Shown here in pieces: positions 3,609-63,643 of a stretch of 64,000 nucleotides of DNA. A model generated the notes under the pieces. That model ran no database searches. It was not told the origin of the DNA and saw only the letters and a program-made list of their open reading frames with translations. The position numbers and the translations under genes were made by a program. This DNA is from Candidatus Adamsella avium (lineage in GTDB: Bacteria; Cyanobacteriota; Vampirovibrionia; Gastranaerophilales; CAJFVJ01): positions 705,266-769,265 of the forward strand of contig CAJFVJ010000001.1 of the NCBI GenBank assembly GCA_904420445.1. Direction: 5' to 3'. The first letter of the stretch is position 1. The number at the start of each line of letters is the position of its first letter.

Positions 3609-5626
3609 GGGGTTGTTTGATTTTTGGTCGAGTTGTATCTGAAGATTGAATAATCAAGGCTGAAGCCTGCAATTAAAAACAAAGAGAGGATGTGAAAGAG
3701 GTTAATCTGTCTGTTTGACAGACTCAGGATGCCGATGACAAAGAGTCCCGCAAGGAGAGGGGGAAGGATTATTTTTGCTGCATTTTTGGGTTTGTAGATG
3801 ATTGAGAGAATTGCAAACAAAATCAAAACAGCAGGAAGTATAAGTTTCAGGCAGGAGGTTCTGCAGTGTTTAATTTTATTTGATATGTCATTTTTCAGGT
3901 CGATGAATTTCAGATTTTTGTTGTTTTGAGAGTTTTTAAGTTTTTGCGACGTTTCGTTTTGCAGGATGATTATAGATGTATGGTCGTCGACCATAAAATC
4001 TTTGAGTACGGGGAGTTTTAGTTTATCATATGTTAAATATTCCTGTTCATCAGATGTGTTGAGGAGGTTTGTTCTTATATTTTCAGGGAGGAAGGCGGCG
4101 TAGTTATTCAGTTCTTTTTTATATAAGGTGTTGATAAGGAGGTTGTTTTCCTTTTGTTGTTTTATTGATGGAAGAAATTTGCTCAGAGAGGAGAAAGAGT
4201 TTTGGTCGAGGTCTTTTGTAGCTGTTTCCTCCGCTTCTAGTATTTCTTGCAGATTGTCACCTTTTATCAACAAGAATAAGGGTGATGAGTTGTTTTTATT
4301 CAGCTTGTTGTAGAGAGCTTCTGCATTTGCAAGAAATTTCGGCGGTCTGTACATGTCTGTTATACTGTCGTTAAAACTGATTTTGAACAATCCTGCGCAG
4401 GCAATCAGCAAAAGTGTTGAGGCTGATATTATTTTTATTTTTTGTGGACCTTTGTTGAATGGAGTAAATATATCTAAGTTTGCGGGAGTGGGTTTTATGT
4501 TTTTGCATAAGATGGGATAGAAGAGAACGACGAAGAGGTAGACGCAGAAAAGACCACCTGAAGTGAAGACAGAGATTTGTTTTAGCAGTTCGATGTGTGA
4601 GAATAACAGCACGAGGAAGGCGCAGACGGTTGTCAGCATACTCATTGTCAGACTTTTGAAGATGAGTTTTAGGTCATTGTTATGGGCAAAATAGTGCAGG
4701 GAGTAGTCAACGCAGATACCAATCAGAGTTGATGAGAACACAAATGTGAGGATATGGATTGAATCGAAAAAAATTGATGTGAGCATATAACCGCAGAGCA
4801 TTCCCAATGACAGACTCAGCGCAATCGGAAGAAGAAGTTTGTAAGACCGGAAATAGAACTTGCAGATAAGGATTATAAACAGCGAAGAGAGCAGGCAGAT
4901 GAGGTTTATTTCCTTCATTGACTTTGAGCTTGCATAATAGGTATGGACAGGCGAGCCTGTCAGGAAGATGTTTGTACCTTTGTATTTTTGCTCGATTTGC
5001 TCTTTTGTTTTGATTATTTTGGGCATCTCAAGATTGAGCAATGTGGGAGAGAGCGAGATGTCTTTTTTGAATGTAAGTTTGAGAATTGTGTAATATTTTC
5101 CGTCTAGTTCATATAAGTCGCCTGTGTTTTGCTGCGATAGCATGCTGAGATAGTCGCTGAAGAGCAGAAACGGGTCTTCTTCAAGCGGGAGCAAATTGAT
5201 GCTCAACGGGTTGTAGAGTCTTTCGAGGCTTTCTTTTTTAATGAGTTCATAGTTGTCATTTTTCAGTTCGGTTCTTGTTTTTTTGGAGAGAAGTTTTTTG
5301 TGGTGCGTTTTATATAACTCAAGAAGGTCTGAAATTTCTTCTCCTGTTGAGATATCAGATTGAAGAGAACTTTTATCGGTCAGTTTGAGAAATTCTTTTT
5401 GTGCTGCATCAGCCTGTGTCATATCATCAGATTCGAATATAACGTTGAAGCGCCCCGAGTGTTTGTTGCTGAGGTTAATGAGTGTTGTATCTTCTTTGCT
5501 GTTTGATAAGACAGCTTTCAGGATGTTTGTCTGGGATTTTTTCGGGTGAAAGAAGACGAATATTGCCATAGAGGCAAATATTATGCAAAAGAGTATTCTC
5601 AGTATGTTGATGACGGTGTTTTTCAT
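3407..5626 (-). CDS. MMPL/RND-superfamily exporter
   Basis: A 739-residue inner-membrane transporter with two homologous halves: an N-terminal helix (about 5-25), a periplasmic domain, a block of hydrophobic helices from about 240 to 375, a further helix near 400, a second soluble domain, then helices from about 595 to the C-terminus. Lipid and polyene exporters of this family occur in aryl-polyene clusters (ApeM-type). It probably moves the finished or lipid-linked product across the inner membrane and passes it to the LolA-like protein encoded just upstream. Its last 67 codons overlap the phosphopantetheinyl transferase gene in antiparallel orientation. Confidence 0.85.
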   Translation of the reverse strand: MKNTVINILRILFCIIFASMAIFVFFHPKKSQTNILKAVLSNSKEDTTLINLSNKHSGRFNVIFESDDMTQADAAQKEFLKLTDKSSLQSDISTGEEISDLLELYKTHHKKLLSKKTRTELKNDNYELIKKESLERLYNPLSINLLPLEEDPFLLFSDYLSMLSQQNTGDLYELDGKYYTILKLTFKKDISLSPTLLNLEMPKIIKTKEQIEQKYKGTNIFLTGSPVHTYYASSKSMKEINLICLLSSLFIILICKFYFRSYKLLLPIALSLSLGMLCGYMLTSIFFDSIHILTFVFSSTLIGICVDYSLHYFAHNNDLKLIFKSLTMSMLTTVCAFLVLLFSHIELLKQISVFTSGGLFCVYLFVVLFYPILCKNIKPTPANLDIFTPFNKGPQKIKIISASTLLLIACAGLFKISFNDSITDMYRPPKFLANAEALYNKLNKNNSSPLFLLIKGDNLQEILEAEETATKDLDQNSFSSLSKFLPSIKQQKENNLLINTLYKKELNNYAAFLPENIRTNLLNTSDEQEYLTYDKLKLPVLKDFMVDDHTSIIILQNETSQKLKNSQNNKNLKFIDLKNDISNKIKHCRTSCLKLILPAVLILFAILSIIYKPKNAAKIILPPLLAGLFVIGILSLSNRQINLFHILSLFLIAGFSLDYSIFRYNSTKNQTTPHLKSNWAVLISCATTVFSFFLLAMTSFRLISSLGFILSLGLTSSYILSLVLMPDTSAPSPKASDNI

Positions 5627-53941: not shown

Positions 53942-54496
53942 ATGGGAGGACGTGGCTCAGGCGGTAGCAGAGGCGGAGGCGGAGCAAGTAAATCAATTAA
54001 TGCTAAAACTGAGAACGAATTAAATTACTTGTTAAATAAATCATATAAATACGATGATGATGCCTACGAATTCTCAAGAAGAGCTGCCTCTGAACAAGCT
54101 ATTGCGAGAAAGTATAAACAAGCCGGTAAAAAAGAATTGGCGGAAAAATATACACAATACGCAAAAGAGGCACTGGCAAAAGCCGATGAAGCAAAAGCAC
54201 AGTCTAAAAAATTTAAAACAGAAGCTTCAAAATTAGCAAGTAAAAAAGTACAAGATATTCCAAGGACATACCAATACAAGGGTGAAAATGGTGTAAGAAC
54301 CGTATATAAGAGCCCTCAAAATGCACGAAAAGCCTACGATCAAGCAAGAGAAAATTTGGTTAGTACAGCATATAGAGACCACCCAAGTATAGTGAAATCT
54401 CCAAAAGGGGGATATAGTGTTGTTCCACATGGAATAGCAAAATTGAATAACTTAAAAGAAATCAGCCCATATAGCATTGATATGAGCGATTCTTAA
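53942..54496 (+). CDS. MGGRGSGG-tagged phage protein 2
   Basis: A 184-residue protein with the same N-terminal M-G-G-R-G-S-G-G tag as its neighbour but an unrelated body: Ala/Lys-rich helices (25-100) and a C-terminal domain with T-V-Y-K-S-P-Q-N-A. The two starts are also similar at the DNA level (ATGGGAGGACGTGG in both), so the tag was copied or shuffled. Function unknown. Confidence 0.65.
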   Translation: MGGRGSGGSRGGGGASKSINAKTENELNYLLNKSYKYDDDAYEFSRRAASEQAIARKYKQAGKKELAEKYTQYAKEALAKADEAKAQSKKFKTEASKLASKKVQDIPRTYQYKGENGVRTVYKSPQNARKAYDQARENLVSTAYRDHPSIVKSPKGGYSVVPHGIAKLNNLKEISPYSIDMSDS

Positions 54497-54514
54497 TTGT
54501 GTCAGAATGATACG

Positions 54515-54540
54515 GAATTGGAAGAAACGACTTCCAATTC
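54515..54540 (+). terminator. strong hairpin between accessory genes
   Basis: A perfect 10-base stem, GAATTGGAAG with CTTCCAATTC, encloses a six-base loop; the stem can be extended by TACG/CGTA outside. It is followed by TTCGTATTC, not a long T run, so it may be a weak terminator or an RNA processing and stability hairpin rather than a classical terminator. It separates the MGGRGSGG genes from the DUF4268 gene. Confidence 0.45.
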
Positions 54541-54587
54541 TTCGTATTCAGAGTGATTAATGTGGTTGTAAAATAAAGGAGGTCAAT

Positions 54588-55388
54588 ATGACAGAAGCAA
54601 TCACAGCACAAGAAGTTTTAAAAAGCAGACAAAACTTCAGCAATTACATTGAAAAATACAAAGATGATGTAATTACTGAATTACTTAAGGATTATCCAAA
54701 TCGAGGCTTACACATTATTTGCCCTCAATTAACACAAAATGCAGATGGTTTAATAGAGGCAGTTGGCGAATTAAGAGGAAATCAAAAAGCCTATATATTT
54801 TGGTTTATCGCAAACGAGAAAGAAGATTTAATTAATATCGCTAAAACATTAAATCATTGTTTTAATCAGAATTATTGTGGACTTTTTGTAATTAAAACTA
54901 TTTTGAACGGGGATAAAATAGAATTTAAACCTATTTTAAAACCCGAAATCCCAACAAAACAAGTTAGAAATAATAATACACCTGCAAAACAAATACAAAA
55001 AGAATACTGGGATAGATACTTTGAAGTCTGTGACGAATTACAAAGCGAAATGCAAATCAATCCTGCTCCACAGCATTATCAATATATTTCAATCGGTAAA
55101 AAAGGTGTGCAGATAATGCAAACCGTAAATACTAAAGATAAATATGTTGCAACTGAACTATTTATTAACAACGACAAAGACATATTCAATAATCTGCTTA
55201 AATCAAAAGATGAAATTGAAACAAAATTAGGATTCTTAGATTGGCAGAATTTAGAAGGTAAAAAATCTTCAAGAATTAGACAGGTTCTGCATTATGACAT
55301 AACCGATACAAGCAATCTCGATGAAACTATCAAATCTCACATAAAAATGGCAGAAGATTTTAGAGATACTTTCAGAAAGTTTTTATAA
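54588..55388 (+). CDS. DUF4268 protein, nuclease-like
   Basis: A 266-residue protein with a C-terminal DUF4268 domain: Y-W-D-R-Y-F-E-V-C near 140, P-A-P-Q-H-Y-Q-Y-I-S-I-G-K-K-G-V-Q-I, then K-D-E-I-E-T-K-L-G-F and W-Q-N-L-E-G-K-K-S-S-R-I. The N-terminal 110 residues look like a small alpha/beta domain. DUF4268 proteins often sit near restriction or defence genes and have been suspected to be nucleases. As a late phage accessory gene it could act in defence or against host DNA; this is inference. Confidence 0.72.
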   Translation: MTEAITAQEVLKSRQNFSNYIEKYKDDVITELLKDYPNRGLHIICPQLTQNADGLIEAVGELRGNQKAYIFWFIANEKEDLINIAKTLNHCFNQNYCGLFVIKTILNGDKIEFKPILKPEIPTKQVRNNNTPAKQIQKEYWDRYFEVCDELQSEMQINPAPQHYQYISIGKKGVQIMQTVNTKDKYVATELFINNDKDIFNNLLKSKDEIETKLGFLDWQNLEGKKSSRIRQVLHYDITDTSNLDETIKSHIKMAEDFRDTFRKFL

Positions 55389-55398
55389 GGGGGCTTAA

Positions 55399-55554
55399 AT
55401 GAAAAGAATAGTTGTTGAATTTAAAGAAACCTATATGGAACATAGCGTTATAAGAGAATGCGAAGTTTCAAGTTTGGACGAAGTAATAAGACTTTATGAA
55501 CTAAACAATAATGACATTGAATATTGGAAAGTTCTTGAAGAAACCGATTTATAG
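55399..55554 (+). CDS. small phage protein (51 residues)
   Basis: A short frame with a good ribosome site (AAGGGGG) ten bases after the previous stop. The protein is acidic, with K-R-I-V-V-E-F-K-E-T at the start and a strand-helix-strand look. Spacing and ribosome site support it as a real gene; no family recognised. Confidence 0.6.
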   Translation: MKRIVVEFKETYMEHSVIRECEVSSLDEVIRLYELNNNDIEYWKVLEETDL

Positions 55555-55568
55555 GTACAGGAGGTCTT

Positions 55569-55766
55569 ATGGCAAAGAAAAACCTTAAAGAATCAGCTCT
55601 TAGATATGAAATTCAAATAAACCTTGATAATGTCCTAGATGTTTTAGGCAAACTTAACTTTATAAATATATCAGAAGTTTGGTTTGAAAGTCTTGCCTAC
55701 GATTGGCTGGATAATAATCCCTCTGAAAAAGATATGAATAAGGTTTTAAAAGAGTTGGGATATTAA
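55569..55766 (+). CDS. small phage protein (65 residues)
   Basis: A 65-residue acidic protein, 14 bases after the previous small gene and preceded by AGGAGG. Helical, with D-N-V-L-D-V-L-G-K-L-N and a conserved-looking W-F-E-S-L-A-Y-D-W. No family recognised. Part of the accessory tail of the plus-strand operon. Confidence 0.6.
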   Translation: MAKKNLKESALRYEIQINLDNVLDVLGKLNFINISEVWFESLAYDWLDNNPSEKDMNKVLKELGY

Positions 55767-55876
55767 ATCTCAATTCTTTTTTAATATGTCTGAATGATAC
55801 AGAATAGTCTCAATAACTTGAAATAGTCTAAACACTATTCGATTAATGACAATGCACAATACGAAAGGACAATAAA

Positions 55877-56026
55877 ATGAAAGTAAAAGAATTAATTGAA
55901 ATTTTAAAAAATGTAGATGAAAATTTTGAAGTAAAAATCACTGATATGGAAGGCAATGTTGATGAAGATATACAAGTTGTTGACCACGATTTTGAAACAG
56001 TTTATTTAGTAGCAGAGTATTTATAA
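55877..56026 (+). CDS. small phage protein (49 residues)
   Basis: A short acidic frame with GAAAGGA upstream. The sequence starts K-V-K-E-L-I-E-I-L and contains alternating strand residues. Such K-V-K-E-L-I-E-x-L-x-x-x-D proteins are common as tiny phage ORFs. In the 110-base gap before it there is an inverted repeat GAATAGT/ACTATTC (about 55812-55851). Function unknown. Confidence 0.55.
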   Translation: MKVKELIEILKNVDENFEVKITDMEGNVDEDIQVVDHDFETVYLVAEYL

Positions 56027-56039
56027 GAAAGAATAAATT

Positions 56040-56234
56040 ATGGAATTAAAAAGCAAAAATGATATGTTGTTCGGAACTAAAATTTACAATAATAAAACTA
56101 ATGAAATAGGACTACTTATTTATACTTGGACAAATTCATTTGCCGATGGAGATATTGAGTATGCAACCTGTGTTGATAAAAACGGGAAAAGATATAATAT
56201 CGAAATGGATTTAATTATCCCAGTTGAAGAATAG
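56040..56234 (+). CDS. small phage protein (64 residues)
   Basis: A 64-residue protein 14 bases after the previous gene. It is beta-rich with G-L-L-I-Y-T-W and Y-A-T-C-V-D-K-N-G-K-R, as in small SH3-like barrel proteins. It is the last gene of the plus-strand phage operon. Function unknown. Confidence 0.55.
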   Translation: MELKSKNDMLFGTKIYNNKTNEIGLLIYTWTNSFADGDIEYATCVDKNGKRYNIEMDLIIPVEE

Positions 56235-56423
56235 CAATAAAGCGAAACATATTTTTAAATATTTAAAAGATAATTTTGTGTATTTTAAACTTTAAATAAA
56301 GATAACTATTCAATATTTATTGCATCAAACATTATATAATAGTTAAAAATTATAACTAACTTGAGTAATATAGATTCTTACAACCCGTATTTGCAAATAA
56401 CAAAAATATCTCATTCTTTTTTA
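56235..56423. other. convergent gap between late operon and HEPN gene
   Basis: This 189-base gap separates converging transcription units. It is very A+T rich, with an inverted repeat TAACTATT (56303-56310) and AATAGTTA (56338-56345). No G+C-rich terminator hairpin is visible for either direction. Confidence 0.35.
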
Positions 56424-57887
56424 TTATGAGTCAATGTTATAAGTAGTAAGTTTTTCTTTTATTATCAAAATAATTTTGTTTCCCCATTCAGTTTTTAATA
56501 AATAGTTGTCTTTTTTTAAATACTCAAGAGAGCAATACTCTTCTTTTTTAATATTTGACCTTTCTATAGTTCGAATTAGCTCTTCTAATATAGTATCTCG
56601 TTCAGCAGTGTTCATATTATTAATTATTGATAATACAGACTCAATACAGCGTTCTTTATACCGAATTTCATTATTTTCATTAACAAAAACTTCAAATATT
56701 ATACCTTTAAGAAAATCAACTGGTAACGAATAAATATCTTGTGATTCAAGAAAGGCACGAGCTTCATTTTCACCGCCATTAGCTGTTTGTAATACATTTC
56801 GACCCAATTCAATTTGTTTGTCTATTGGTAAATCTTTAAGAGAACTCTTTTTATTTATTATTATTAAAATGGCTGGTGATTGAACATACCAATTATAACT
56901 TTTTAAATCAGAAATAATTCTATCGTAAAGAAAATTTAAATCAGCATCTGAATTAGCAAATACTTCAAGTGACAAATTATTCAATTCTTGTTGAATAATA
57001 TTATATTGATCAGTGGTTAATACTTTGGTTTTAATTAGATTAATTATTCCGTTTAAAACCGGCAGGTAACGATTTATAAGATTTTTTGCTTTTGTTAGCA
57101 GTGTATTCTGTGCATCAAATCCAATTTTTGAGAAAAGGACAGGTTCTAAAAGTATAAAACTATCTACTATTTTCAACTTCATTGTAATTTGATGCCAATC
57201 GGCATTAGGCAGTTCAGCTATATCAGTTTTTTTTAACAATACAGACAAAAGATTTATGCCTAGGTTAACTTCTTCTGTTTTTGTACTTTTTGTCAAATAT
57301 TGATCTAACTTTTCAAAATAGCCTTGTATAAACAACATTAAATTATCTGTTTCAATCCTTTTGAGTAAGAACTCTGTATGCCTTTCTATCGAAGCAGGAA
57401 AATTTGCGACGTATAACATATTATTGGTAAGTTTAGAAATCTCCTGTTTTATATTGTTTTTTGTAAAATACAGTGTTTTTGCCAGTATTATATCTATTAC
57501 ATCAACAAAGGCACTATCAACATTTTCTAATTTAGGACTTTGGTTATATGGATGTGCGTATATGCACCTATTTTCATAAATTTGTTTTAATTTATTTTCT
57601 TCAATTGCATCAATAAATCCATATTCTTTTGCTTTTGTTAAAATAATCTTATCAGTGGCTTGTTTTCCTTCACTTATATTAGTAATTTCATCATGAAATT
57701 TTTTTGCAACCGAGTCCGTTAGACTTAATTTTTTAAATCTTTCAAGAATAGATTCTATGCAAGCAAGCCAAATTAATATATATGCTGCTCTATATTGCCC
57801 ACAGTGAATAATTTTAACTGCTTCTTTTATTAAAACTTTATCAATGTCTTCTGGGATTTTTTTTATATATTCGTCATAATTAGTCAT
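56424..57887 (-). CDS. HEPN-like protein, candidate phage-borne defence effector
   Basis: A 487-residue helical protein. The N-terminal 150 residues resemble a HEPN domain: a helix with Y-R-A-A-Y-I-L-I-W-L-A-C-I-E (about 32-45) and the catalytic-type motif R107-C-I-Y-A-H112 (RX4H) in the sequence Y-E-N-R-C-I-Y-A-H-P. HEPN RNases cut RNA in abortive-infection and toxin-antitoxin systems. The C-terminal 330 residues are all-helical and unrecognised, perhaps the sensor part. It is translated after an 82-residue protein (overlap eight bases), with its own promoter and behind an intrinsic terminator, so it is a separate unit within the prophage. Confidence 0.68.
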   Translation of the reverse strand: MTNYDEYIKKIPEDIDKVLIKEAVKIIHCGQYRAAYILIWLACIESILERFKKLSLTDSVAKKFHDEITNISEGKQATDKIILTKAKEYGFIDAIEENKLKQIYENRCIYAHPYNQSPKLENVDSAFVDVIDIILAKTLYFTKNNIKQEISKLTNNMLYVANFPASIERHTEFLLKRIETDNLMLFIQGYFEKLDQYLTKSTKTEEVNLGINLLSVLLKKTDIAELPNADWHQITMKLKIVDSFILLEPVLFSKIGFDAQNTLLTKAKNLINRYLPVLNGIINLIKTKVLTTDQYNIIQQELNNLSLEVFANSDADLNFLYDRIISDLKSYNWYVQSPAILIIINKKSSLKDLPIDKQIELGRNVLQTANGGENEARAFLESQDIYSLPVDFLKGIIFEVFVNENNEIRYKERCIESVLSIINNMNTAERDTILEELIRTIERSNIKKEEYCSLEYLKKDNYLLKTEWGNKIILIIKEKLTTYNIDS

Positions 57888-58128
57888 TTATTATTGAATC
57901 CTCTAATGCAAACTTTTGGTAAAGCAGCATCCGCAGTCGTTCATAGGCTCTAAAACGTTGAACCATATCTTCAGTAATGGTTGAGTCATAATCGCAGTCT
58001 GGTATTGTATAGGTATAAGATTTGCTTTTTCTTTTTATATCTTGAAATAACTTGATATGGTCGTCATAATAACGAACATTTAAATCTGCTATTTCAATCT
58101 CTTGCTTAATCTGTTTTAAAGCGTTCAC
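57880..58128 (-). CDS. 82-residue partner of the HEPN-like protein
   Basis: A small helical, charged protein starting at GTG (58128), directly upstream of and overlapping the HEPN-like gene by eight bases. It contains heptad-like helices at both ends (residues 1-30 and 58-80). The tight coupling suggests a functional pair, for example regulator or antitoxin with effector, but no family is recognised. Confidence 0.6.
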   Translation of the reverse strand: MNALKQIKQEIEIADLNVRYYDDHIKLFQDIKRKSKSYTYTIPDCDYDSTITEDMVQRFRAYERLRMLLYQKFALEDSIIND

Positions 58129-58149
58129 ATTTATAGCCCCAATGTTTTC

Positions 58150-58177
58150 ATAATATATAAAAAAAACAAAAGTTCAA
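58150..58177 (-). promoter_or_regulatory. predicted promoter of the HEPN unit
   Basis: On the minus strand TTGAAC (58172-58177) and TATTAT (58150-58155) are separated by 16 bases, close to a sigma-70 promoter. It lies between the Mor terminator and the GTG of the 82-residue gene, 21 bases upstream of it. This would allow expression in the lysogen independent of phage early and late control. Confidence 0.5.
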
Positions 58178-58229
58178 TATTGTTATTTTGTTTAACATTT
58201 TATTAGCTATATCAGTTTGAATAAATTAT

Positions 58230-58266
58230 AAAAAACTTCAATGTGTAATAAATATAAACATTGAAG
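58230..58266 (-). terminator. intrinsic terminator after the Mor-like gene
   Basis: On the minus strand CTTCAATGT and ACATTGAAG (58236-58244 and 58258-58266) form a perfect nine-base stem with a 13-base loop, followed directly by six T. It is 20 bases after the Mor-like stop and should end the early transcript there. Confidence 0.75.
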
Positions 58267-58286
58267 TATAGAAGTGATGTATTATA

Positions 58287-58640
58287 TTAGCTTTTGCTTT
58301 TAGGATGTGACTTATTTGGGAGGTGGTTTTGAATTATTTTATAAATATATCTTTGGGAAAACTCACATTCTAATGCTAATCGATTAATCGTATATTTCCT
58401 GCCATCATACTGACTTATTATGTACCTCTTTTTAACCTCTGTAAAAGCATTTTTTGGAATCGTAACAGTTAATCCTGGAGTTAGAAAAATTAAAGCCAAA
58501 GCTGAACGTATGCCAGCTGATTCAGCAATTGTCTTTAAATCATCATTTGGCATATCTTCAGATTTTATATAATCCATCCAAGGCTTATATTCCATAATCT
58601 CCTCATTCTTATTACGTTTGGTCTCATCAGTTAGAGCCAT
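58287..58640 (-). CDS. Mor-like transcription activator
   Basis: A 117-residue protein of the Mor/C family: the dimerisation region I-A-E-S-A-G-I-R-S-A-L-A-L and the C-terminal helix-turn-helix Y-T-I-N-R-L-A-L-E-C-E-F-S-Q-R-Y-I-Y-K-I. In Mu these proteins turn on middle and late genes. Here it probably acts on the two mirror-image promoters at 39321-39463. A second ATG at 58595, preceded by GAGGAG, may be the true start; the first ATG (58640) has a hairpin instead of a ribosome site. Confidence 0.8.
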   Translation of the reverse strand: MALTDETKRNKNEEIMEYKPWMDYIKSEDMPNDDLKTIAESAGIRSALALIFLTPGLTVTIPKNAFTEVKKRYIISQYDGRKYTINRLALECEFSQRYIYKIIQNHLPNKSHPKSKS

Positions 58641-58647
58641 ACTCTAA

Positions 58648-58677
58648 GACGGTCAGCTTGCACCGTTAGCCGACCGT
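58648..58677 (-). promoter_or_regulatory. GC-rich hairpin before the Mor-like gene
   Basis: A stem of eight pairs with one mismatch (ACGGTC-A-GC, 58649-58657, against GC-C-GACCGT, 58669-58677) and an 11-base loop sits in the 49-base gap upstream of the Mor-like gene, between two A+T-rich genes. It could pause transcription or control translation of the activator. Confidence 0.4.
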
Positions 58678-58689
58678 TTCGACCTGTAA

Positions 58690-59007
58690 TTACATAGCAA
58701 CAATCATTGGATTACTTTGCATAGACTGAATTTCTTTATTTAATTTTTCAAGAACACTAATTTTACCCTCAATCACTTTAACGTTGCTTTCTCTTTCAGC
58801 AACTATACTCCAATGGATACTTTGGTCATGTTTAGCGTCATAACTTTTAATCTTTGCATCGTCTAATTCATATCTAAACATTAGAATTTTTTGTCTAATC
58901 GATTCTAAAATTTGAGATTCTATGCCACATGAGTTTTGCATAGTGTTATTTTTTTGTTGTGTCTCAGTGTTTAATTGCATTTCATTGTTTGCTTCCATTG
59001 TTAACAT
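58690..59007 (-). CDS. early phage protein, coiled coil
   Basis: A 105-residue protein rich in Gln and Asn at its N-terminus and with a helical, heptad-like second half (about 30-95). AAGGAG precedes the ATG. Its place between the GemA-like and Mor-like genes matches small unnamed early genes of Mu-like phages. Function unknown. Confidence 0.65.
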   Translation of the reverse strand: MLTMEANNEMQLNTETQQKNNTMQNSCGIESQILESIRQKILMFRYELDDAKIKSYDAKHDQSIHWSIVAERESNVKVIEGKISVLEKLNKEIQSMQSNPMIVAM

Positions 59008-59033
59008 AATTTTCTCCTTTACTTTTTCTTCTA

Positions 59034-59483
59034 CTAATTAAGTGTGGCCGCACTTTTTTCTACATTCTTTTTCATTGCTATAATTCCATGAATTACTTTA
59101 TTTGCTTTTATTCGAGTCAAAAACATAACGTCATTGATTTTGAATCTTAATTTTAAAAATTTTCTTAAGGATTTTTTAGCAAATTTATCATTGTTATAAT
59201 AGCTAAGCTCTCTCCATAAACTTTCTATCATTCTAAGTTGTGCATCTGATGCCATATTGTCTGAACGATTTAAGCCTGCATATTTTTTTTGTTGTCTAGT
59301 CCACTTGTTTATTGCAATTGCTTTTTCTTCAAGAATTTCAATAAATTTGGATGCATTTGTAAAGTCTAATTTTTTAGATGTATTAACGTTAAATGTTAAA
59401 AGCATTTCACGATATAAATCGTCATCAATACTTAATATATTTTTTAATGTATGAATCTTTTTAATCTGAAAACTCGTAGCCAT
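59034..59483 (-). CDS. GemA/Mu gp16-like protein (DUF1018)
   Basis: A 149-residue protein of the GemA/DUF1018 family: Q-I-K-K-I-H-T-L-K at the start, D-D-L-Y-R-E-M-L near residue 21 and the A-S-D-A-Q-L-R-M-I-E-S-L-W region near 79-91. Mu GemA modulates host gene expression and DNA topology. Its start overlaps the small membrane protein gene by 23 bases. Confidence 0.82.
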   Translation of the reverse strand: MATSFQIKKIHTLKNILSIDDDLYREMLLTFNVNTSKKLDFTNASKFIEILEEKAIAINKWTRQQKKYAGLNRSDNMASDAQLRMIESLWRELSYYNNDKFAKKSLRKFLKLRFKINDVMFLTRIKANKVIHGIIAMKKNVEKSAATLN

Positions 59484-59625
59484 ATTTAATACTCATATCT
59501 TCAAGTTGAAGTTCTCGTCCATGTTTTATGCCTATTTGCACTCCCAAAATAAAAATGGCAAGAGCTATTAAAAAGATGTTTAACCATAATGAAGTGTCGG
59601 GTCGGAATTTCTTACCATCGTTCAT
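59461..59625 (-). CDS. 54-residue single-pass membrane protein
   Basis: A short frame between MuB and GemA. AAGAAGG precedes the ATG by five bases. A hydrophobic helix (about 13-32) is followed by a charged tail. It resembles small early membrane proteins of Mu-like phages; its role is unknown. Confidence 0.65.
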   Translation of the reverse strand: MNDGKKFRPDTSLWLNIFLIALAIFILGVQIGIKHGRELQLEDMSIKYGYEFSD

Positions 59626-59637
59626 TCTAATACCTTC

Positions 59638-60516
59638 TTAAGCCATTAATAATTTGGAAGTTTGTTTGATCACAACATCATCGACCTCAGCTTTGCCATT
59701 AAATTTAGCAATGCTAATGCTGTGAGAAATTAAGTGTTCTAATCTTCTTGTATTACCATCAGAATAAAAAAGATATTTCTCTGCTAGTTTTACGTTCTGT
59801 CCAATTGACTCAAGAATTTTAATTACATCTTGAATTAAAATTTTATCTATAATCTTTGTAAATTTAACTCTTGAATAAAGTTGGTCATATTGATTGTTGT
59901 AGCCCTTAAGGTTTTCTAATAAAATTCCTCTGCCTACCAATAAAATTCCAACACCTGTTTTATCGTGAATTCTTCTTGTAATTTCAAGTGCTCTATATGG
60001 TAAATTTTCAGCTTCATCAATAATTAAAAGCCTACCGGATTGATTTAATTTTCTTATTACCTCATCCATTAAGTCATAAACAGAACCTTTACCAGCTAAA
60101 CCTAAACGTCTATGAATTTCTTTAAGTAAAGATTTTGCAGTATAACCTGAATCACTTTCTATAAGAATTGAATCCATAAATTCTTTTGTATATCTTTTGA
60201 CAGCAACAGTTTTACCAAGTCCGGCTTTGCCAACACAAACACCAATTTTCCCTTGGGTATGACAAAGCCTACCTATTTCAGAAATATATTTAACAGTTGA
60301 AATTTCAACATATGGAAGTTCATTGTTGCCTGAACGTTCACGTTCTCTTTGAATAAAATTATTAATAGCATCAGTTATTTTATCGTTTTTACCGTTATAA
60401 TTGCCGTTAATCCACATACTTATAGTCGATTTTGCAATACCTGTGGCTGTTGAAATATATCCAATGCTGTAATTTCTACATTCCATCAGTTCTTTTAATT
60501 CTGTTCTAATATCCAT
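59638..60516 (-). CDS. MuB-like transposition ATPase
   Basis: A 292-residue AAA+ ATPase. An N-terminal helix-turn-helix (about 17-37, G-Y-I-S-T-A-T-G-I-A-K-S-T-I-S-M-W) is followed by Walker A G-K-A-G-L-G-K102-T and Walker B L-L-I-I-D167-E-A-E. MuB binds DNA, selects the target and stimulates MuA. The gene overlaps MuA by 11 bases, the usual A-B order. Confidence 0.9.
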   Translation of the reverse strand: MDIRTELKELMECRNYSIGYISTATGIAKSTISMWINGNYNGKNDKITDAINNFIQRERERSGNNELPYVEISTVKYISEIGRLCHTQGKIGVCVGKAGLGKTVAVKRYTKEFMDSILIESDSGYTAKSLLKEIHRRLGLAGKGSVYDLMDEVIRKLNQSGRLLIIDEAENLPYRALEITRRIHDKTGVGILLVGRGILLENLKGYNNQYDQLYSRVKFTKIIDKILIQDVIKILESIGQNVKLAEKYLFYSDGNTRRLEHLISHSISIAKFNGKAEVDDVVIKQTSKLLMA

Positions 60517-62431
60517 TCACCACTCCTTTTAATTCTTGTTCAAGAATTTTATCAGTTTCATACAGATACAATGGCTTTTCTTCAATCTTTTTATCTTCTA
60601 AGAAAATTGATAAATCTTGTTTGCCAAATTCTTCCATTTCTTTATTTTTTCTAATGGCTTTATCCATATTGGTATTTGCTAATTTAGAAATTTTAGGTTT
60701 TAATTGTTTTTCAGTATTTGCATACACAGTTTTATAATTTTCATATTGTTCTTCAAGAGGACTTTCCATTGTTTGTTTAATATATGATTTAGCAACCTTC
60801 AAATTACGTTTTTTAATTGACATTGCTTCTTTAAATTCTTCTTTGGAAACAGTTTCTGCATGCAGAGCAGCAACAGCTTTTACGGCTGTTATTTTTCCGA
60901 CAAATTCATCATTATCAGCTCTAAATGCCCAAGCTTCTTTATAATTTTGAATATCTCTTCGAAGATAAACTTTTAATCCTGTTTGAGATATCATCCAATC
61001 TGCCCAGTATGTAATACCAAGAGAATTATCTTTGATTCCATTTCTGCCAATGGTGTAAGTTTTAGATGTTCTCATACAAAATAGCTTGAGTGCACTCTGA
61101 GATGTCGTAATTTTCTCTTTAAATTCTTGATAGAAAAGTTCATCCGGACATAAACCCTGTAAATTTTTACCTTGTGAAGGTCTTTTGTTTAGAACATTAA
61201 GGATAAATTTATCAAATATTGATTTAAATTCGTTAAAAGGAATAATTTTACCTGATTTAATTTCATTTATCAATTTTTCAGGTCTTTCAACAACATTACC
61301 TCCCCTATAGCCAATGCAATGTTTTGAAATTAATTCTTTTATTTTTAGAAAATCTCTCTCGATAGGTTTTGTTTGTGCATTATATGGAAGTGCAAAATGT
61401 ACTTGAATATTCAATTCATCTAACATAGATGTTGTTTTAGAAGTGTTTGTTTCAACTTTTATTTTATTTTGTCTTCCTCCTGCGAAATCTTTACAACGAT
61501 AATCTTTTCCATTATCAATAATCACATCTTCAGGAAGTCCAAATTCTTTTGCTGCATAATAAAAAGTTTGAAATATGTGATCTGAATTAGGATGCCCACA
61601 TTGAAGCAACCAACCAAGCCATTTCCCCGATTTATAATCTCGCCAAGCAGTTACCCAAGGGAAAACAATATCACCATCAGGACTCAAGCAAGCAACATCA
61701 ATTTGTGCGTGGTCTGATACCCATACCTTGCCACAAATAATATTAGAATAGTCTCGTTCAATATAATTATTATATTTTCTATTCCACGCAGATTGTCCAT
61801 AACGTGCTAAATAAATACTTTGTTGCGGAATTTCACGTTTTAATTTTCTTTTAAAAGTAGAACAACTTGGAAAATCAGATACCTCAATATTTTTATTCCT
61901 AATTGCATAGCCAAGTGTTAAATCCCAACAACTTTGTAATGAGGGAGCACCTTCCTTTAAGTATAAATTCTTAAAATATTCAAAATCATTGTCATCAATT
62001 ATACTTTTGCCATAATTATTTCCATATTGGGCTAAAAGACCACTTATTCCGCATTGAATATATCGACTTCTCATTCTTATTACAGAAGAATAAGACGTTG
62101 TAAAATCTGGATTATCATTATTCCACTTATTTATAAAGTCTTTTAATTCTTTCCCTCTAATATTTAAGCTTTTTCTTACAATTTTAATATATTTATCAGC
62201 TTGTATTTTAGACCATTTGGGTGCATCTGAATATTTTTTATCGTCTATCTCTGATATTTTTTTTAATTTAATAGAGGAACTATGAATAAAAAATTGTTTA
62301 ACATTATTTTTTAATTGAATTTTATATATAAAATTGCCTTTATAACAACGATTTTTGACAGTTTTAGGTGTAATATGTAATAACTCACATACTTGTTCTA
62401 GTGTAAACCAAGTTTGAGACTTTATTGACAT
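60506..62431 (-). CDS. MuA-like transposase
   Basis: A 641-residue DDE transposase. The N-terminal DNA-binding part has a helix-turn-helix (about 11-29). The integrase core has its acidic residues in D-H-A-Q-I-D (D240 or D245), I-I-D306-N-G-K-D and P-I-E358-R-D-F, and a C-terminal MuB-interacting region follows. It cuts the phage ends and joins them to target DNA in replicative transposition. Length and domain order match Mu A (663 residues). Confidence 0.93.
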   Translation of the reverse strand: MSIKSQTWFTLEQVCELLHITPKTVKNRCYKGNFIYKIQLKNNVKQFFIHSSSIKLKKISEIDDKKYSDAPKWSKIQADKYIKIVRKSLNIRGKELKDFINKWNNDNPDFTTSYSSVIRMRSRYIQCGISGLLAQYGNNYGKSIIDDNDFEYFKNLYLKEGAPSLQSCWDLTLGYAIRNKNIEVSDFPSCSTFKRKLKREIPQQSIYLARYGQSAWNRKYNNYIERDYSNIICGKVWVSDHAQIDVACLSPDGDIVFPWVTAWRDYKSGKWLGWLLQCGHPNSDHIFQTFYYAAKEFGLPEDVIIDNGKDYRCKDFAGGRQNKIKVETNTSKTTSMLDELNIQVHFALPYNAQTKPIERDFLKIKELISKHCIGYRGGNVVERPEKLINEIKSGKIIPFNEFKSIFDKFILNVLNKRPSQGKNLQGLCPDELFYQEFKEKITTSQSALKLFCMRTSKTYTIGRNGIKDNSLGITYWADWMISQTGLKVYLRRDIQNYKEAWAFRADNDEFVGKITAVKAVAALHAETVSKEEFKEAMSIKKRNLKVAKSYIKQTMESPLEEQYENYKTVYANTEKQLKPKISKLANTNMDKAIRKNKEMEEFGKQDLSIFLEDKKIEEKPLYLYETDKILEQELKGVVNGY

Positions 62432-62640
62432 ATTCTACGATACCCCTCAATTTTTATATTGAAAACTTTCTCAATTAGAAAAATGTCACAAGGATAATAA
62501 GTCTTTTCTCCTGATAAATGTTTGCTGATAACGCTATTTGATACATTTAGCATCTTTGCAACTTTTGTTGGTGTTAGATTTAAAAATACTAACAGAATCC
62601 TTAAAATTTTTGATTTGTCATTCTGCTCTTTAATTGTCAT
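62422..62640 (-). CDS. small helix-turn-helix regulator, Ner-like
   Basis: A 72-residue protein with an XRE-like helix-turn-helix: L-T-P-T-K-V-A-K-M-L-N-V-S-N-S-V-I-S-K-H-L-S-G near residues 22-44. It is the first gene of the early operon, directly before and overlapping MuA, the position of Ner in Mu. It should regulate early transcription, perhaps through the palindrome at 62830-62849. Confidence 0.82.
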   Translation of the reverse strand: MTIKEQNDKSKILRILLVFLNLTPTKVAKMLNVSNSVISKHLSGEKTYYPCDIFLIEKVFNIKIEGYRRICQ

Positions 62641-62965
62641 TAAGTTTTCCTTTTCTTGAAATTAGTTACATATATATTTCAAGTTGTGGCTGTTAATCTC
62701 TTTTATTAGGTTATATGGCTAATTTTTGCACGACAAAATAGCCTAACACGGCTTCTCCATCAGGGAAAAATAGCTTATAACTTAATTATATTTGTATAGT
62801 TTTTTTTGAAAATGTCCCCTAAAAAATGGAAGGTCAAATATTTGACCTTTTGAAAAATTAGAACCCAGTAATAATAAGATTTTATTTTTATGCGATTTTG
62901 AAAAATGGTTTCAAAGCAAATAATCAAGAGTATTTTAAAATTAACAAATATTTTATTAAGAAATG
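62641..62965. promoter_or_regulatory. early control region and possible prophage end
   Basis: This 325-base gap is free of genes. It contains a perfect 20-base palindrome (62830-62849) and several A+T-rich stretches that may be -10 boxes for the early operon on the minus strand (TATAACT- and TATAGTT-like sequences at 62774-62803). The left end of the prophage, where MuA should bind, probably lies here, but I could not define the end repeats. No repressor gene lies between the Ner-like gene and the next coding sequence. Confidence 0.45.
62830..62849. promoter_or_regulatory. perfect 20-base palindrome, candidate operator
   Basis: AAGGTCAAAT and ATTTGACCTT abut without a spacer. A dyad of this quality close to the start of the early operon is a good candidate for a dimeric repressor or Ner-like site. 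It lies about 190 bases upstream of the Ner-like start. The right-hand end runs into CTTTTGAAA, also found in the late-promoter boxes at 39356-39428; that may be chance. Confidence 0.5.
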
Positions 62966-63643
62966 TTAAGAAAATAACATTCTATTTATTAGTGAAAATT
63001 CTTCTTCGTAAGACTTTCCGTACTTCCAAATCTCTTCAGCCAAGTGAAGATGAAATTTATTTATAAAAGAACGATTTAAGACTTTTCTATAACTTCTTAG
63101 GTATATATTTTTAATTTCCAGTCGTTCTTGTTCTTTGTGTTTGCGAGCATCCTTATTTACAAGATACTTTTCCGATACATATAAATTATGATTATATAAG
63201 TATAAATAAACTTTCGTATTCATGTAAACTCTCTCTTGGGGGATTTTAGGATATTTATCAAACTGCTTTAATAGTTCTTTGTACTGTCTATCATAAATTA
63301 ATGTTCTTAAATATACATAAAAATTATTCATAGTGTGTTTGGAATATCCAAATAAATCAATCATTTTTAGAACTTCAATATCAGCACAAAAACCTCTAAT
63401 TATATAATCAATATCTTGTTTTTTATGAAAATCAAAAAATAATGGAAGTTTACTTATTTGTTGTTTTTTACAAACTCTTTTATTGTAATAATAACTTCCA
63501 TCACAATATGTGAGCCGTTCTTCTTGAATTAAACCATCAATTATGGGCTTAAGTTCTTCCGAATCAATTTCAGATATTGTCTCAATTTCATCCAACGAGA
63601 ACTTGTTTAAACGTTTGCATAGTTTTAATATTCGTTCTTTCAT
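62966..63643 (-). CDS. unknown 225-residue protein next to a MuB-like ATPase
   Basis: A basic, helical protein. The first 55 residues look like a winged helix (L-D-E-I-E-T-I-S-E-I-D-S-E-E-L-K, then R-L-T-Y-C-D-G-S-Y-Y-Y). A second helical region includes L-F-G-Y-S-K-H-T-M-N-N-F-Y. It overlaps the preceding ATPase gene by 56 bases and probably belongs to the same mobile element, perhaps as a DNA-binding partner in transposition. I do not recognise the family. It is transcribed toward the prophage early region. Confidence 0.6.
   Translation of the reverse strand: MKERILKLCKRLNKFSLDEIETISEIDSEELKPIIDGLIQEERLTYCDGSYYYNKRVCKKQQISKLPLFFDFHKKQDIDYIIRGFCADIEVLKMIDLFGYSKHTMNNFYVYLRTLIYDRQYKELLKQFDKYPKIPQERVYMNTKVYLYLYNHNLYVSEKYLVNKDARKHKEQERLEIKNIYLRSYRKVLNRSFINKFHLHLAEEIWKYGKSYEEEFSLINRMLFS

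Follow-up and report, generated by a model that had tools for sequence, protein, structure and literature searches.

PD-T7-3 protects E. coli against phages, and the protection is stronger against T-even phages than against T7 (PMC9519451, Vassallo et al. 2022). It was paired with HEPN (PF18735) in a review (PMC10952713). PD-T7-3 and Dandelion (PDB 9wxf, 9wx2, 9wwz) carry an N-terminal HEPN region of about 190 residues, with an RX4H-P motif and a conserved R33. The C-terminal half of PD-T7-3 is helical, and the length is 432–460 aa. In the literature searched, no paper on 'Dandelion' as a defence protein was found.

The locus described here lies in the window, the whole 64,000-nt stretch of DNA that was analysed. 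It is a pair of overlapping genes in a Mu-like prophage, encoding an 82-aa protein (P82) and a 487-aa protein (P0001). The larger protein resembles PD-T7-3/Dandelion in the N-terminal HEPN region, in both conserved sequence features, in its helical C-terminal half and roughly in size. However, its C-terminal half cannot be aligned with that of PD-T7-3 (hhalign Prob 0.1%), and a domain named SYNWYVQ here is found instead. The two systems also differ in that the 487-aa protein is encoded in a Mu-like prophage and overlaps the gene of a small, cotranslated partner. Because the C-terminal halves differ, the trigger of PD-T7-3 is not transferable to the 487-aa protein.

Three other systems were compared. 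In S. aureus prophages, the HEPN RNase Tha guards the lysogen, and the small protein Ith prevents attack on the carrier phage at induction (PMC11087260). The window pair is likewise a prophage-carried HEPN protein with a small dedicated partner. The likeness is one of working principle and not a claim of homology. In Tha, a protein of 301 aa, the HEPN domain is C-terminal, whereas it is N-terminal in the window protein; Ith is encoded by an antisense overlapping gene, whereas the P82 gene lies upstream on the same strand. In HEPN-MNT (HepT-MntA), the partner is a nucleotidyltransferase, unlike P82, which is a predicted helical hairpin with no family match. Finally, effector-associated domains (EADs) are small non-catalytic domains on diverse effectors, as SYNWYVQ is in its HEPN, caspase and PIN_8 fusions. 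EADs are defined by homotypic coupling, in which copies of the domain are paired (PMC7159879; EADs also in PMC8195603). In contrast, the host genome has a single SYNWYVQ copy, with no second one in the genome or the operon, and therefore EAD-type homotypic pairing is not seen.

Results

The host belongs to the order Gastranaerophilales and its genome is 2.1 Mb. The prophage was identified as Mu-like by MuA, MuB and GemA family matches. The P82 gene (57880..58128, minus strand, GTG start) precedes the gene of the 487-aa protein (56424..57887, minus strand, ATG start), and the two overlap by 8 nt. The same overlap is kept in a second prophage, L002 (6001–6008). The left neighbour is a gene for a Mor-like late activator (58287..58640, minus strand), which matched Pfam Mor with an E value of 1e-4, below the model cutoff, and a PHROG of late transcriptional activators with 8e-11. 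The right neighbour is a convergent 64-aa gene, p64 (56040..56234, plus strand), whose end at 56234 is also the end of the late operon. An intrinsic terminator of the Mor-like gene is located at 58230..58267 (minus strand). Its hairpin has a 10-bp stem followed by T6 and folds at –10.6 kcal/mol, compared with a mean of –2.5 for shuffled sequences (z –5.1). A simple terminator scanner overlooked it because the loop is long. Thus, the layout proposed in an earlier sequence-only reading was confirmed in the two overlapping genes of 82 and 487 codons, in their position behind the Mor terminator and in their orientation opposite to the late operon. The promoter of its own that the same reading had predicted has no support above chance level. 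Within 3 kb there are 17 sigma-70-like matches, the candidate TTGAAC-16-TATTAT (58150..58177, minus strand) being one of them, and chance alone would give 20.6, so that the candidate is by itself no evidence of a promoter. It does belong to the DNA block that the window and L002 have in common. An Rfam scan of 54000–63000 returned no RNA family, and therefore no AbiF-type RNA partner was detected there. A second Mu-like transposase is present in the host genome (G000:C1:388700-390628); it is 65% identical and is followed by a different downstream gene set (L072).

The pair was found to be a discrete and mobile insert. In the sister Mu-like prophage L065 (G087) of the same order, the Mor protein is 92% identical and the late proteins adjacent to the slot are 94–100% identical. 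The homologous flanks of the slot are 27 bp apart there, with just a terminator between them, versus 2,025 bp in the window; the segment missing from L065 corresponds to 56234..58258. The pair was also not present in the other comparable prophages fetched. The same pair occupies the same place in L002, a diverged Gastranaerophilales prophage and the nearest relative for this cassette. L002 and G287, a member of the order in the phylum genome search, seem to be one record. The shared cassette (56418..58181, minus strand) has 86% DNA identity in blastn. Its edges are sharp, one lying 53 bp upstream of P82 and the other 6 bp beyond the stop codon of the HEPN gene, and outside of it the flanks of L002 show just weaker patches of 66–75% similarity. 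A discrete insert with conserved edges, missing at the same site in a close relative, is what a phage cargo gene (moron) should look like, and the unit is such a cargo cassette of Gastranaerophilales Mu-like prophages. A moron is also expected to bring its own promoter and terminator; here the terminator upstream is strong and the promoter candidate is at chance level.

Synonymous divergence was compared between the window and L002. The dS value is 0.32 for the HEPN gene and 1.1–1.7 for the backbone genes MuB, GemA, DUF4268 and p184. Therefore, the HEPN gene was swapped between prophages later than the backbone split. For P82, dS is about 1.0, a noisy value from 82 codons, and dN/dS is 0.06, indicating strong purifying selection. 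P82 thus has the larger dS of the pair, and its movement may at times be separate from that of the HEPN gene.

The N-terminal part of the 487-aa protein is, by homology, a PD-T7-3/Dandelion-type HEPN domain. It covers residues 1–160 (57408..57887, minus strand), and the homology reaches about residue 194. The PADLOC model of PD-T7-3 matched the protein in the genome search with an E value of 1.6e-6 and its first 190 residues alone with 1.6e-7, the match spanning model positions 7–170 of 432. When four family members were compared with 11 PD-T7-3-type proteins by hhalign, residues 2–194 were aligned with Prob 99.1 and E 1.6e-18. A profile of the three closest members found the solved Dandelion HEPN 9wx2 in the PDB with E 4e-6, and a profile including more distant HEPN relatives (A2) reached 2e-19 against the same domain. 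The matched Dandelion stretch fits the PD-T7-3 model with E 4e-92, and hence PD-T7-3 and Dandelion are one family. The link to PD-T7-3 was visible only through the genome profile search, the HEPN part alone and the profile–profile comparison. Direct searches of the full-length window proteins against Pfam, PADLOC and PHROGs gave nothing usable; the same was true of the HEPN part alone against Pfam, and PF18735 did not match the window protein. A single-sequence PDB search found nothing, and no relatives turned up among viral contigs or phages when P0001 and P0002 were the queries.

The predicted catalytic motif R107-x4-H112 (57552..57569, minus strand) is exact in the window protein, ENRCIYAHPYN. 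R33, R107, H112 and P113 are invariant in all 19 sequences, most of which are 18–33% identical to the window protein. Therefore, the RX4H is not a chance match. The AlphaFold2 model of the 487-aa protein is all-helical (pLDDT 86). R107 is near the end of helix 94–110, and H112 is in the loop before helix 120–135. In HEPN RNases, the arginine and the histidine are expected at such places, a helix end and the loop that follows. The sequence-only reading had named the RX4H HEPN motif, expected R107 and H112 to be retained in homologues and described a large all-helical C-terminal region; it was right on these points. RNase activity of the 487-aa protein is suggested by the motif and the homology. 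Three proteins of about 600 aa from the same phylum (L083, L084, L085) combine a PD-T7-3 HEPN with a longer C-terminal half that has an extra region.

Behind the HEPN domain, residues 161–315 (56943..57407, minus strand) form helical, solenoid-like repeats in the AlphaFold2 model, and residues 318–426 (56610..56936, minus strand) make up the SYNWYVQ domain, delimited by alignment A3 and reciprocal HMMs. Foldseek with the full model found just generic alpha-solenoids, none with an E value below 1e-3. These matches were dismissed as meaningless because their E values are above 7e-3 and the TM scores are 0.12–0.27. The domain is marked by the motifs KSYNWYVQNPA, LGRNIYQAACG and G-x3-E, and 16 columns are invariant among the 11 sequences of A3. 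It has no match in Pfam, NCBIfam, PADLOC or PDB, so that the C-terminal region, which the earlier reading had called unrecognised, is indeed so in these collections. A homology of SYNWYVQ to the C-terminus of PD-T7-3 was considered, since both contain a KSxNW-like stretch. An hhalign comparison with a reversed control did not support it.

A scan of 84,980 genomes, seeded by exact 8-residue words, yielded nine loci with the domain. Two have the full HEPN architecture (L002 and L003, the latter from Spirochaeta), four encode a caspase (Peptidase_C14) and three a PIN_8 protein. Further caspase-SYNWYVQ proteins were found on four viral contigs and on plasmids, and one more PIN_8 version on a plasmid. 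HMMs built from the caspase, PIN or HEPN rows alone each recovered the other classes among 5,000 decoys; P0001 was recovered by the caspase-only HMM with 2e-19 and by the PIN-only HMM with 1e-15, and the E values of P0001 with the single-class HMMs lie between 1e-15 and 1e-20. As judged by these searches, SYNWYVQ is a domain common to HEPN, caspase and PIN_8 proteins. In the caspase proteins (L004, L005, L007, L008, L025–L028, L030–L032) it is about 30–40% identical. They differ from the HEPN protein in having a caspase-fold protease as the effector and an extra C-terminal extension, and several of them, too, are in prophages or beside defence genes. The PIN_8 proteins (L006, L009, L010, L021) carry the same domain together with a PIN-like nuclease and are longer, with 612–641 aa. 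Because a fixed domain is combined with three unrelated killing enzymes, SYNWYVQ may be a sensor, a switch or an adaptor.

The genes around SYNWYVQ relatives mark their surroundings as defence neighbourhoods. L003 is flanked on one side by a PD-Lambda-3_B/Ymh gene and on the other by a gene that weakly matches type I specificity (HsdS) subunits. L004 has a C5 methylase, Vsr and an MvaI/BcnI endonuclease as neighbours, L007 an N6_N4 methylase and L010 a TIR protein. L016 is about 3 kb from a Cap4-type nuclease. On an Agrobacterium plasmid (L029), a caspase-SYNWYVQ gene and a second gene of the caspase family are arranged tail to tail, close to QatA of a Qat system. HEPN relatives were also found on plasmids and beside restriction genes.

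Two caspase-SYNWYVQ loci have other neighbours. In L031 (Prevotella), a 290-aa protein (4376–5248, plus strand) overlaps and precedes the caspase-SYNWYVQ gene; it ends in a HEPN-like RNYIHP and has no Pfam match. The gene at 4265–5761 of L025 (IMGVR_UViG_3300014616_000007), a viral contig, is next to a DNA invertase-type recombinase and umuDC-like genes, these neighbours being assigned by eye.

The small partner P82 is modelled by AlphaFold2 as a helical hairpin of helices 2–37 and 53–81 (pLDDT 78). It has no family, phage or viral-contig match and no match to antitoxins, DNA-binding proteins or nucleotidyltransferases, which agrees with its earlier description as unrecognised. Its only paired homologue is that of L002 (87%). 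A weak unpaired match (E 9e-5) was obtained in G229, one of 292 genomes of the phylum. This small helical protein has no HEPN neighbour and was not counted as a relative. The HEPN relatives L003, L016, L017 and L022 have no 82-aa partner. The pairing expected by the sequence-only reading is thus conserved between the window and L002 and does not extend to these relatives. Because they are without a partner, P82 is not the family's general antitoxin but an extra specific to the phage.

Discussion

The cassette is a moron with which the Mu-like prophage probably defends its lysogen against other phages. It would consist of a PD-T7-3/Dandelion-type HEPN RNase joined through a solenoid-like region to SYNWYVQ, with P82 as the regulator. 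The best reading is that of an abortive-infection system carried by a phage, in which an HEPN RNase is equipped with a putative sensor/adaptor domain common to other effectors and with a small regulator peculiar to the phage. An anti-phage role is suggested by three lines of evidence, namely the homology to PD-T7-3/Dandelion HEPN, the empty site in the sister prophage and the transfer between prophages, and these support the phage-carried defence module of the sequence-only reading. The exchange of effectors on SYNWYVQ and the defence genes near its relatives also speak for this reading, and Tha/Ith provides a functional precedent. When a foreign phage infects, a signal would reach the C-terminal part, with or without a host or phage factor as intermediary. 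HEPN dimers would then cleave RNA, and the infected cell would stop growing. P82 might keep the effector inactive in lysogeny or while the carrier phage itself is being induced, or it might tune the sensing; control of the effector by P82 is the least certain step.

The main rival to this defence reading is a type II toxin–antitoxin or addiction module, with P82 as a protein antitoxin that binds and neutralises the HEPN protein; the pair would then keep the prophage stable or cause abortive infection when the antitoxin is lost. A small upstream gene with an 8-nt overlap kept in both prophages would fit such a module, as would the purifying selection on P82. However, the full-length HEPN-SYNWYVQ relatives L003 (Spirochaeta) and L016 (Spirosoma) have no partner, P82 resembles no antitoxin, DNA-binding protein or nucleotidyltransferase, and a multidomain effector of 487 aa is uncommon for a toxin. 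We consider this explanation unlikely. The earlier suggestion of a new abortive-infection or toxin–antitoxin type stands in part. The C-terminal domain and the architecture are new, but the effector half belongs to the known PD-T7-3 HEPN type, and the toxin–antitoxin side is weakened by the partnerless relatives and the lack of likeness to known antitoxins.

It is improbable that the HEPN protein serves the lytic cycle of the carrier phage, by degrading host RNA or shutting off the host with P82 as a timing factor. The cassette adjoins the middle regulator Mor and shares the strand of the early genes, which would suit such a role, but a strong terminator separates it from the Mor gene. Moreover, it is missing from the sister prophage with 94–100% identical late proteins adjacent to the slot and from the other comparable prophages fetched, and HEPN relatives occur on plasmids and beside restriction genes. 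Even less credit is given to an anti-defence or anti-plasmid device whose targets are another host system or competing mobile elements and not incoming phages. Carriage on a mobile element and plasmid-borne relatives are compatible with it, but the activity of PD-T7-3 is anti-phage (PMC9519451) and nothing specific indicates anti-defence. An inactive scaffold that has lost HEPN catalysis and just binds nucleic acid is very improbable, for although non-catalytic HEPN proteins exist, none of 19 diverse sequences departs from R107, H112 or P113.

Within the defence reading, the known part is the effector half, which is of the PD-T7-3 anti-phage HEPN type. The new part is the C-terminal domain common to the caspase and PIN_8 proteins, together with the present architecture. 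A wider proposal is offered tentatively. SYNWYVQ could be an undescribed infection-sensing or switch module mounted on at least three unrelated killers, a HEPN RNase, a caspase protease and a PIN nuclease. The single-protein abortive-infection systems built in this way would then form a new modular family, whose prophage version has in addition a small protein that silences it for its own phage.

If this is true, three unrelated suicide enzymes are under the control of a single small conserved domain, and the triggers of its HEPN, caspase and PIN versions, once compared, would reveal what SYNWYVQ senses and how effectors are swapped behind a fixed sensor. Gastranaerophilales (Melainabacteria), whose phage biology is little studied, would join the hosts of prophages with HEPN defence. 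In Mu-like phages, the slot that mor and the late operon enclose would be a clear place to seek further cassettes.

Other small genes were seen in the same Mor–p64 slot of L057–L060, L066, L071 and L073, and their kinds differ by prophage; one example is a 95-aa protein (MPVLEKQKPLYRHDCEDCIYLGSDEIRDYYFC...). Elsewhere in the window prophage, a DUF4268 protein is encoded at 54588–55388 (plus strand), with matches to Pfam (4e-18), the PADLOC candidate PDC-S11 (6e-25) and phrog_27742 (1.6e-97). Nearly all comparable Mu-like prophages fetched have one (33–96% identity), and therefore it looks like a standing gene of the phage group rather than sporadic cargo.
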